From positions 1 to 58,849 of the forward strand of contig CACKTW010000003.1 of assembly GCA_902603215.1 (NCBI GenBank): a DNA stretch of 58,849 nt. Direction: 5' to 3'. Every line of letters begins with the position of its first letter. The stretch's first letter is position 1. The position numbers and the translations under genes are program-made. Positions 2,300-20,474 of the stretch are shown here, one piece after another. The notes below the pieces were generated by a model. It saw nothing but the letters and a program-made list of their open reading frames with translations, did not search any database and was not told the DNA's origin. The stretch is from an uncultured Pelagibacteraceae bacterium. GTDB lineage: Bacteria > Pseudomonadota > Alphaproteobacteria > Pelagibacterales > Pelagibacteraceae.

Positions 2300-2314
2300 A
2301 AAATTTAAAAAATA

Positions 2315-2343
2315 ATTAGACTCCAACAAAGAGTCTGGGTCAA
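2315..2343 (-). promoter_or_regulatory. Predicted ccrM promoter: -35 TTGACC (2338-2343), 17-bp spacer, -10 TCTAAT (2315-2320), with GANTC sites inside
   Basis: Read on the minus strand: TTGACC-CAGACTCTTTGTTGGAG-TCTAAT; GANTC at 2319-2323 and 2331-2335, a third at 2363-2367. Confidence 0.65.
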
Positions 2344-2382
2344 CCTATGATTGAATTAAAATGAGTCTTTTTGTGTTAATGA

Positions 2383-2961
2383 TTAATTTTTAATCAATAT
2401 ATTGTGTATTGGTTTGTAGGTTTTTCTGTGATGAGGAGTTACACCAAATTTTTTAAGTGCCTCTAAATGTTTTTTAGTTCCATACCCAAAGTTTGTGTTC
2501 CATGAATATTTTTTAAATTTTTTTGATAACTTTTTTATATGCTTATCTCTTGCCACTTTGGCAATAATAGATGCGGCAGAAATTGAAGGTATGCTTTCGT
2601 CACCACGAACAACTGGTCTAATTTTTATTTTTTTTATGTTTGGCACTTGATTTCCATCAACTAATATCAAATTAGGTTTTTTGTCTAATTTATTAATGGC
2701 CCTTTTCATGGAAAGTAAAGTTGCTTGTAAAATATTTTTTTTTTCTATTTCTTTTACAGAAGCCTTAGCAATTGCAAATAAAGAATTTGCTTTTATATAA
2801 TTTGATATTTTTATTCTATTTTTAAAAGATATTTTTTTTGAATCTTTTATAAAGCTTGTATCAATATTGCTGTTTAAAACAACAGCTGCAGAAAAAACAG
2901 GGCCTATCCAGCTTCCTCTTCCAGATTCATCAACTCCTGCAATAATTTTTTTTTTCTTCAA
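2383..2961 (-). CDS. rnhB: Ribonuclease HII
   Basis: AGVDESGRGSWIGPV, ILVDGNQVP, SIIAKVARD, FGYGTKKHLEAL. Confidence 0.95.
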   Translation of the reverse strand: MKKKKIIAGVDESGRGSWIGPVFSAAVVLNSNIDTSFIKDSKKISFKNRIKISNYIKANSLFAIAKASVKEIEKKNILQATLLSMKRAINKLDKKPNLILVDGNQVPNIKKIKIRPVVRGDESIPSISAASIIAKVARDKHIKKLSKKFKKYSWNTNFGYGTKKHLEALKKFGVTPHHRKTYKPIHNILIKN

Positions 2962-18522: not shown

Positions 18523-19816
18523 CCCTCAGACCTTTTTGCGGACTTGTTTCCAAAGAAATATCTCCACCATGAGACTTTATAATATCCGAAGCAATAGACA
18601 AGCCAAGACCAACTCCAGTTTTGTTTTGGCTTCTACTTTTATCTATTCTATAGAAAGGTTTTATTACATTTTTCTTTTCTTTTTCTGAAATCCCTGGGCC
18701 ATCATCATCAATGAAAATCAAAATATTATTCATGCTATTTTTTAATGAAATTTCTGCTTTGTTCCCATAACTCAATGCATTATTTACTAAATTAGTTAAA
18801 CATCTTTTTAGTGAATTAAATCTACCTTTATAAGTAATTTCATTTTCAATTGATAATTTAATTTTATCAGAATCATATTTTGAAACAATGTCAGCCAAAA
18901 GTTGATCTAATTGGAATACATCTGTTTTTTCATTTATCTGAGAACTTGAAAATTCTAAATATTCATTTAGCATTTTTTCCATTTCATCTAAATCATCAGA
19001 CATTTTCTTTGAAATATTTTTATTTTCAAGAAATGCCAATTGTAATTTCAATCTAGTGAGTGGTGTCCTTAAATCATGACTAATCCCAGACAACATTTCA
19101 GATCTTTGATTTAGATGTTTTGTTATTCTTTTTCTCATGCGGTCAAATTCGTAAGCAGCCTGTCTAATTTCCAAAGCTCCAGACGGTCTGAATTCTTTAA
19201 TATTTTCACCTTTTCCAAATTGTTCTGCTGCTTTTGCCAAATTTACAATTGGCCTAGTTTGATTTTTTAGAAAAATAATTGCAATTAAAATTAGTAAAAT
19301 TGCTGGCAAGGTTATCCACAAACCAAATATCCTTGCTGAAGAAGGAGAGATTCTTTCTTTAGGAAAAAAGATTTGTAGCACTCCATCTTGAAATTCAATT
19401 CTTAAGTCAATTATTTCTTTATATCTGGTAGCATCAAACCAATAATTATTAAACTGAGATTTTAATTCTCTTCTTAGAGTTCTATCCATTGGGCTAAACC
19501 ATCTTTCACTTTTATAATTAGGCAATCTTTCGGATTTTAAAAATTTAATTGTAAAATCAAAATTTTGATTATACAGCTTGGTTACTAATTTTTTATTATC
19601 TTCATTTCCTTCTTTATAAACATCTATAATCGTTGATATCTCGCTAACCAATGATCTTGTCATACCTTTATTTGTTTTAATCCAAAGACTATCAAAAAAA
19701 ACGATTGTAATTATTAGTTGTATTAAAATAATTGGCGTCGCAACAATTAATAAAGATCTATAAAAGAGTCTTTTAGGAAGAATCTTTTTTAAAAAACTAT
19801 TCAATCCATAAAACAT
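18500..19816 (-). CDS. EnvZ-type sensor histidine kinase (HAMP, HisKA, HATPase)
   Basis: SGISHDLRTPLTRLKLQL H-box, NLVNNALSYG, DDDGPGISEKEK, GVGLGLSIA; start moved to MFYGLNSFLKK at 19816. Confidence 0.92.
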   Translation of the reverse strand: MFYGLNSFLKKILPKRLFYRSLLIVATPIILIQLIITIVFFDSLWIKTNKGMTRSLVSEISTIIDVYKEGNEDNKKLVTKLYNQNFDFTIKFLKSERLPNYKSERWFSPMDRTLRRELKSQFNNYWFDATRYKEIIDLRIEFQDGVLQIFFPKERISPSSARIFGLWITLPAILLILIAIIFLKNQTRPIVNLAKAAEQFGKGENIKEFRPSGALEIRQAAYEFDRMRKRITKHLNQRSEMLSGISHDLRTPLTRLKLQLAFLENKNISKKMSDDLDEMEKMLNEYLEFSSSQINEKTDVFQLDQLLADIVSKYDSDKIKLSIENEITYKGRFNSLKRCLTNLVNNALSYGNKAEISLKNSMNNILIFIDDDGPGISEKEKKNVIKPFYRIDKSRSQNKTGVGLGLSIASDIIKSHGGDISLETSPQKGLRVKISLPS

Positions 19817-20474
19817 ATCCTGAGCCCCTAATAGTTTGTAAATATTTTGGTTTTTTTGTTTCAATTTCAATTTTGTGTCTTAAACGAGTTATAACAACAT
19901 CAACAGATCTTAGTTTATCGATTTTTATTAATTTACCGATTTCTTCTCTCGCAAACACTTTTCCAGGAGATTGTATCATTTTTTTTAATATCATTTTTTC
20001 AGTGTTGTTTATCTTGAAGTTTTTGCCATCCCTTTCAATAATTGATTTATTTAAGTCTAATTTTGTTTTTCCAAAAAATATTGTATCAAATTTTTGAATT
20101 TCCAAAGTCTTATTAAGAATATTTTTGATTCTTAAAAGCAATTCTTTTGGCTCAAAAGGCTTTCCCAAGTAATCATCAGCGCCCAATTCTAATCCTTCAA
20201 TTTTTTCTTCAGTTTTGCCTTTTGCTGTTAATAAGATTATTGGTATCAAGTTATTTTTTTTTAATTCAGTTGTTAATTCTAAGCCACTTTTTTTAGGCAT
20301 CATTATATCTAAAATTATCAAATCAAATTTTATTAAATTAATTTTATCTTTAGCCTCAAAAGCATCTTTTGCGGTTGATACTAGATATTTGTTTTCTTCC
20401 AAATATTGTTTAACAAGCTCTCTAATTCTATTGTCATCATCAACAACAAGTATATGTGCTAAATATTTATCCAT
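19797..20474 (-). CDS. petR: OmpR-family response regulator (PetR-like)
   Basis: HILVVDDDNRIREL, LIILDIMMPKKSGLEL, LLTAKG, ADDYLGKPFEPKELLLRI, TIRGSGYVLW. Confidence 0.9.
   Translation of the reverse strand: MDKYLAHILVVDDDNRIRELVKQYLEENKYLVSTAKDAFEAKDKINLIKFDLIILDIMMPKKSGLELTTELKKNNLIPIILLTAKGKTEEKIEGLELGADDYLGKPFEPKELLLRIKNILNKTLEIQKFDTIFFGKTKLDLNKSIIERDGKNFKINNTEKMILKKMIQSPGKVFAREEIGKLIKIDKLRSVDVVITRLRHKIEIETKKPKYLQTIRGSGYVLWIE

Follow-up and report, generated by a model that had tools for sequence, protein, structure and literature searches.

A conserved GANTC-bearing candidate promoter of ccrM in Pelagibacteraceae coincides with the Rfam bablM motif

The ccrM locus and its upstream gap

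The window analyzed here is a stretch of 58,849 nt from an uncultured Pelagibacteraceae bacterium (contig CACKTW010000003.1). In it, the co-directional genes rnhB and ccrM are separated by 83 bp, counted from rnhB to the ccrM ATG, and this gap contains the candidate promoter described below (Table 1). The upstream ORF was named rnhB for its GVDESGRG motif and because the bablM motif has been reported between rnhB and a methylase gene (PMC2704228). The ccrM product matches two Pfam domains (PF01555, 1e-66; PF18755, 3e-15), and its closest solved structure is Caulobacter CcrM (6pbd, 1.5e-136, nearly full length). With the NCBIfam CcrM model NF050803 it scores 572 bits, below the cut-off of 830 for Caulobacter-type CcrM. 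A ccrM match was found in 142 of 148 SAR11-family genomes.

An earlier sequence-only reading of the window had placed the ccrM start at the ATG at 2299 and had called the ORF-track start at 2329 wrong. Homologues agree with this, as they begin at or within a few codons of that ATG, and their start codons lie at a distance from the promoter similar to that in the window. The TTG at 2329, which opens the mechanically called ORF, falls within the promoter spacer. The very short leader proposed by the same reading is backed by conservation as well, and the stretch 2280-2309 has a folding energy of 0 kcal/mol.

Table 1. Features at the rnhB-ccrM junction of the window. Offsets of GANTC sites are given relative to TTGAC; g numbers denote genera.
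Feature	Position	Strand	Remarks
ccrM, 358 aa	1223..2299	minus	N6_N4_Mtase and C-terminal RAMA domain; ATG 2299-2297
Predicted 5' leader, ~9 nt	2300..2308	minus	putative start site ~7 nt after the -10, placed from promoter position
Rfam RF01784 "bablM sRNA" match	2301..2367	minus	46.2 bits, gathering score 38, model 1-70
-10 TCTAAT	2315..2320	minus	17 bp from TTGACC; TCTA invariant in 36 distinct sequences
GANTC, +20, overlaps -10	2319..2323	minus	38/38 g4 and 9/9 g3 loci
GANTC, +8, in spacer	2331..2335	minus	offset 8-9 in 36/38 g4 loci
-35 TTGACC	2338..2343	minus	TTGAC 5' of ccrM in every SAR11-family locus compared and in most class-wide loci
Dyad TTCAATCATAGGTTGAC (TTCAA-N7-TTGA)	2339..2355	minus	overlaps -35; candidate operator
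GANTC, -24, upstream	2363..2367	minus	offset -24 in 23/38 g4 and 19/40 g5 loci
rnhB (RNase HII)	2383..2961	minus	5' of ccrM, co-directional; ORF

Three GANTC sites within 49 bp and a minus-strand promoter TTGACC-17-TCTAAT had been proposed 5' of ccrM, and all of these are present at exactly the positions claimed, with the spacer running from 2337 to 2321. One GANTC lies in the spacer, another straddles the boundary of spacer and -10, with three bases in the spacer and two in TCTAAT, and the third lies ~20 bp upstream of the -35. In the 42 loci of the window's type (genera g1, g4, g7 and g12) hexamers of the sigma70 type are separated by exactly 17 bp without exception, and this spacing stays fixed even as the GANTC in the spacer shifts from offset 8 to 9 or back. 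The -10 carries C, not A, at -11, which is why a promoter scan does not list it; its register is uncertain for the same reason, the alternative being TAATTA (2318-2313) with a spacer of 19 bp.

GANTC is depleted in the window as a whole (121 observed vs 151 expected). A cluster of three in 49 bp anywhere in the window has a P of ~0.36 under uniform placement of the 121 sites and occurs in 78 of 200 dinucleotide shuffles; given that P value, within-window clustering was dropped as proof of significance. For the specific 83-bp gap before ccrM, 0.17 sites are expected and three are present (P ~0.0007). It is the conservation across relatives that marks the sites as non-random.

Conservation of the layout in the SAR11 family and the class

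The GANTC sites are indeed conserved in relatives: in 138 SAR11-family loci, which are related sequences and not independent events, GANTC starts cluster at fixed offsets from TTGAC, namely -24, +8/+9/+10 and +20, in g5 also +25. GANTC thus occupies conserved positions in the core promoter, as would be expected of a promoter methylated by CcrM. Among genera with the sites, the density 5' of ccrM is 2.3-3.0 per 100 nt in those that are well sampled and 0.9-4.0 overall, vs 0.17 in flanking DNA. Among 80 named Pelagibacter-type records, the promoter is found in 79, the -10 GANTC in 77, the spacer GANTC in 76 and the -24 site in 62. All four bases occur as the N of the -24 site in these records; in the spacer site N is A, C or G, with GA and TC constant. 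The paired GANTC array is the sole or nearly sole copy in most SAR11 genomes searched.

Two genera depart from this pattern. All eight loci of g10 and most of g13 have a ccrM promoter without GANTC (L122-L126, L132-L134, L137 and L353-L356; the g13 locus L124 retains one site), in which TTGAC and a related -10 are kept, and both genera still encode CcrM and GcrA. Methylation control would therefore be dispensable in some relatives, and we regard g10 and g13, from their promoter sequences, as a natural loss of the methylation input at ccrM. One genome bin (G028) holds two ccrM loci (L095 and L086) on two contigs, with g3-like and g4-like promoter types; it is probably a mixed bin.

The promoter pattern TTGAC...GANTCTA does not define a regulon: besides ccrM, only the hits at L220 and L221 closely precede a long ORF, and most other hits precede none. 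At these two loci, which belong to genus g2, a conserved promoter-like site TTGAC...GAGTCTA lies 5' of an ORF of ~308 aa (beginning MSFTSRDTAKAAEIYND), possibly a second GANTC-controlled gene.

Outside SAR11, the arrangement TTGAC-N1-6-GANTC-N3-8-GANTC precedes ccrM in 21 of 56 alphaproteobacterial families (0.01 expected from shuffles; one genome was taken per family, which limits non-independence there) and in 15 of 17 sister-family loci (0.005 expected). Class-wide, GANTC offsets peak at -15, +8 to +10 and +19. A site at offset 19 or 20 is present in 22 other alphaproteobacterial families, and offsets 8-10 dominate in the spacer. In these families a CANNNT -10 hexamer lies 17 bp from the -35 and begins with the final C of GANTC; position -11 is A in 19 of the 22 and position -7 is T in 20. 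The -10 GANTC sits one base apart in the two groups (+20 in SAR11 vs +19 class-wide). Families with the paired layout include large GC-rich genomes. The idea that the compact promoter is a product of a streamlined genome is not supported by these data; its occurrence outside SAR11 rather indicates an old class-wide ccrM promoter layout.

The dyad, by comparison, was followed within SAR11, where TTCWA-N7-TTGA is present at ccrM in every genus examined. Only 8 SAR11-family loci lack its strict form TTCWAYNNNNRGTTGA within 100 nt 5' of ccrM, and 540 kb of flanking DNA contain no copy of it. Seven of these 8 loci belong to g6, where a degenerate version is seen at +27/28, and a looser pattern recovers nearly every ccrM locus. 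Elsewhere in the genomes the dyad shows no repetition beyond chance, and a regulon marked by it across the genome was rejected, because both the loose and the strict pattern gave hit numbers about equal to those of reversed controls. Relative to the -35 the dyad takes three positions: -12, over the -35 (g1, g4, g12 and two of three g7 loci); +11, over the -10 (g2, g5, g11); and +27/28, at the putative start site (g3, g6, g8, g9, g10, g13). All three lie in the core promoter, which would suit a repressor site more easily than an activator site and suggests a site for a ccrM-specific repressor. CtrA was discarded as the dyad-binding factor, as no CtrA was found (see below).

The bablM motif and the terminator-like hairpin

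The stretch that matches RF01784 was described as bablM by Meyer et al. in 2009, between rnhB and a DNA methylase. Its authors described a first stem without variation and a second one in which the pair next to the loop often does not form, and they placed bablM among their weakly supported motifs (PMC2704228). Three GANTC sites, TTGACC, GAGTCTAAT and the ATG are all part of the RF01784 consensus. The dyad (TCAAT/GTTGA) makes up stem 1, and stem 2 is one GA(N)TC paired with another, the two N remaining unpaired; because GANTC is palindromic, any two such sites pair in this manner. Among relatives that share the window's promoter type, stem 1 is invariant and the GANTC pairs show hardly any change. 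At the N-N position of stem 2, A opposes G, unpaired, in 20 of 20 sequences of one register, and the remaining variable stem pairs are bases flanking the GANTC sites. No measure of covariation for the bablM pairs exceeds that of shuffled alignments (70 of 500 shuffles reach it).

A structured RNA at this place, either a two-hairpin leader or a small RNA controlling ccrM, is accordingly hard to reconcile with the comparative data. The match to a curated Rfam family at 46.2 bits speaks for it, as does the folding of the window copy into both hairpins at -11.9 kcal/mol; the energy z-score is only -1.64, however, and the invariant stem 1, the make-up of stem 2 from two GANTC palindromes and a covariation no better than in shuffles speak against it. 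Moreover, genera in which the same DNA parts are reordered show no such structure and no Rfam match, and the predicted start site near the 3' end would leave nearly the whole bablM stretch untranscribed. We consider a structured RNA improbable, and the leader version was discarded on covariation and register. Still less probable is an intrinsic terminator of rnhB, or an attenuator of ccrM, formed by the hairpin AGACTCTTTGTTGGAGTCT and an AT-rich tract. A terminator scan does give one minus-strand site here vs 0.3 expected, yet the stem of most relatives is interrupted at the N (A opposite G), the tail reads AATTN with no U run, and the arrangement is missing in other genera although the promoter parts persist; the terminator was rejected on this conservation pattern. 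The same stretch that is annotated as an sRNA in Rfam is explained here by promoter DNA, that is, by the dyad and the GANTC palindromes, and we reinterpret 2301-2367, from its sequence and that of its relatives, as promoter/operator DNA that would be mislabelled as RNA.

Methylation, GcrA and control of ccrM

A gene for GcrA (PF07750) was found in each of 17 genera and in 56 of 61 relatives, the genome of the window included, where it lies outside the window (G000:C1:75697-76128, 75.5 bits). In this genome and in genus g12 the protein scores 75-80 bits vs ~112-140 in nearly all other relatives with full-length matches, and appears from its sequence to be a diverged GcrA. At SAR11 gcrA loci with an identified start (all but 8 of 30), the 110 nt 5' of the gene contain no GANTC, and GANTC autoregulation of gcrA in SAR11 was rejected on this ground.

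CtrA was not detected in the closed g4 genome G025: the scan, which covered this genome, found four Trans_reg_C (OmpR-type) proteins, the best scoring 143.6 vs a cut-off of 350 (NCBIfam). The genome of the window is ~70% complete, and its two Trans_reg_C proteins lie outside that scan; one of them is an OmpR/CenR-like response regulator at 19809-20024 on the minus strand (225-aa frame). An earlier survey likewise did not find ctrA in Pelagibacter (PMC2877005). Inspection of the rnhB-ccrM gap revealed no CtrA box (TTAA-N7-TTAA), and among the class-wide loci only L297 has one.

The Caulobacter ccrM promoter carries its GANTC sites in the leader, unlike the SAR11 promoter with GANTC in the spacer and at the -10. 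Both drive ccrM and bear GANTC sites, and transcription of the Caulobacter gene is thought to respond to methylation; feedback of this kind has been shown for other alphaproteobacterial promoters and has been judged most probable at Caulobacter ccrM (PMC3973325). The Caulobacter promoter is activated by CtrA (PMC3667746), whereas here neither a CtrA box nor CtrA was found. Closer in layout are the GcrA-dependent promoters of Caulobacter ctrA (P1) and mipZ, with GANTC between or at the -35 and -10 in a genome that encodes GcrA (PMC3667746); the SAR11 promoter differs in its target, which is ccrM itself, in its paired array and in the extra dyad, and its GcrA dependence is putative. GcrA prefers and binds methylated GANTC and protects the -35 to -10 region of ctrA P1 (PMC3667746), and a GANTC between -35 and -10 is associated with a distinct activation time in Caulobacter (PMC4287350). 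In Pelagibacter, GANTC is methylated: 99.86% in a culture of strain NP1, with an ori-ter gradient (PMC9516812). A study that scored extended GANTC motifs in 13 species predicted ccrM to belong to the core targets of GcrA in many orders, and found few likely GcrA targets in P. ubique (PMC7987155). It shares with our data the gene, the GANTC-bearing promoter and the spread over several orders; the fixed -35/GANTC/GANTC/-10 geometry, the SAR11 dyad and the link to bablM were not found in the text consulted.

We interpret 2301-2367 as a sigma70-type promoter/operator of ccrM that acts as double-stranded DNA, depends on methylation by CcrM, probably has GcrA as its reader and contains a SAR11 repressor site; we put the probability of this reading at roughly 0.7. 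RNA polymerase would start ~9 nt before the ATG. Replication of the locus would convert the CcrM sites from the fully methylated to the hemimethylated state until CcrM re-methylates them, and ccrM transcription would depend on the methylation state of its own promoter sites. GcrA bound to sigma70 is the most likely reader of the mark, because it is encoded in every genus tested and CtrA was not found. A loop that closes through repression of the fully methylated promoter is slightly favoured. The TTCAA-N7-TTGA dyad of the SAR11 family would in addition be bound by a dedicated protein, probably a repressor. Against this reading stand the C at -11, the promoters of g10 and most of g13 that do without GANTC, the one-base difference in offset between SAR11 and the class, and the few GcrA targets predicted in P. 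ubique.

Methylation might instead act directly on binding of sigma70/RNA polymerase, or through competition with the dyad-binding protein, and leave GcrA uninvolved. One GANTC overlaps -10 bases read by sigma, and methylation represses the Agrobacterium gcrA promoter even in engineered E. coli (PMC11514494); yet GcrA is present in every genus tested, and the spacer and -10 positions are those typical of GcrA-dependent promoters (PMC3667746, PMC4287350), so that we find this rather unlikely. That the GANTC sites are incidental, conserved only through overlap with -10 and spacer sequence needed for other reasons, would agree with their absence from g10 and most g13 promoters. It would hardly account for an N that varies at the preferred offsets (-24 in SAR11 or -15 in the class, +8 to +10, and +19/+20), nor for the recurrence of these offsets in families of very different GC content, and has little probability in our view.

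A tentative extension of the favoured promoter/operator reading, to which we give appreciably less credence than to that reading itself, is a two-input switch without CtrA. One input would be the pair of CcrM sites, read by GcrA and reporting passage of the replication fork. The other would be a repressor dedicated to ccrM, possibly CcrM itself or a small regulator, on a dyad that may have moved between three registers (-12, +11 and +27/28 from the -35) in SAR11 evolution; bablM would then not exist as an RNA.

Our analysis would correct an entry in an RNA database that dates back to a 2009 study, and it provides a concrete, testable promoter with defined sites, of a paired-GANTC type that is widespread at ccrM in the class. 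SAR11 bacteria, which possess few regulators, rank among the ocean's most abundant cells, and the locus bears on how they couple DNA methylation to the cell cycle without CtrA.
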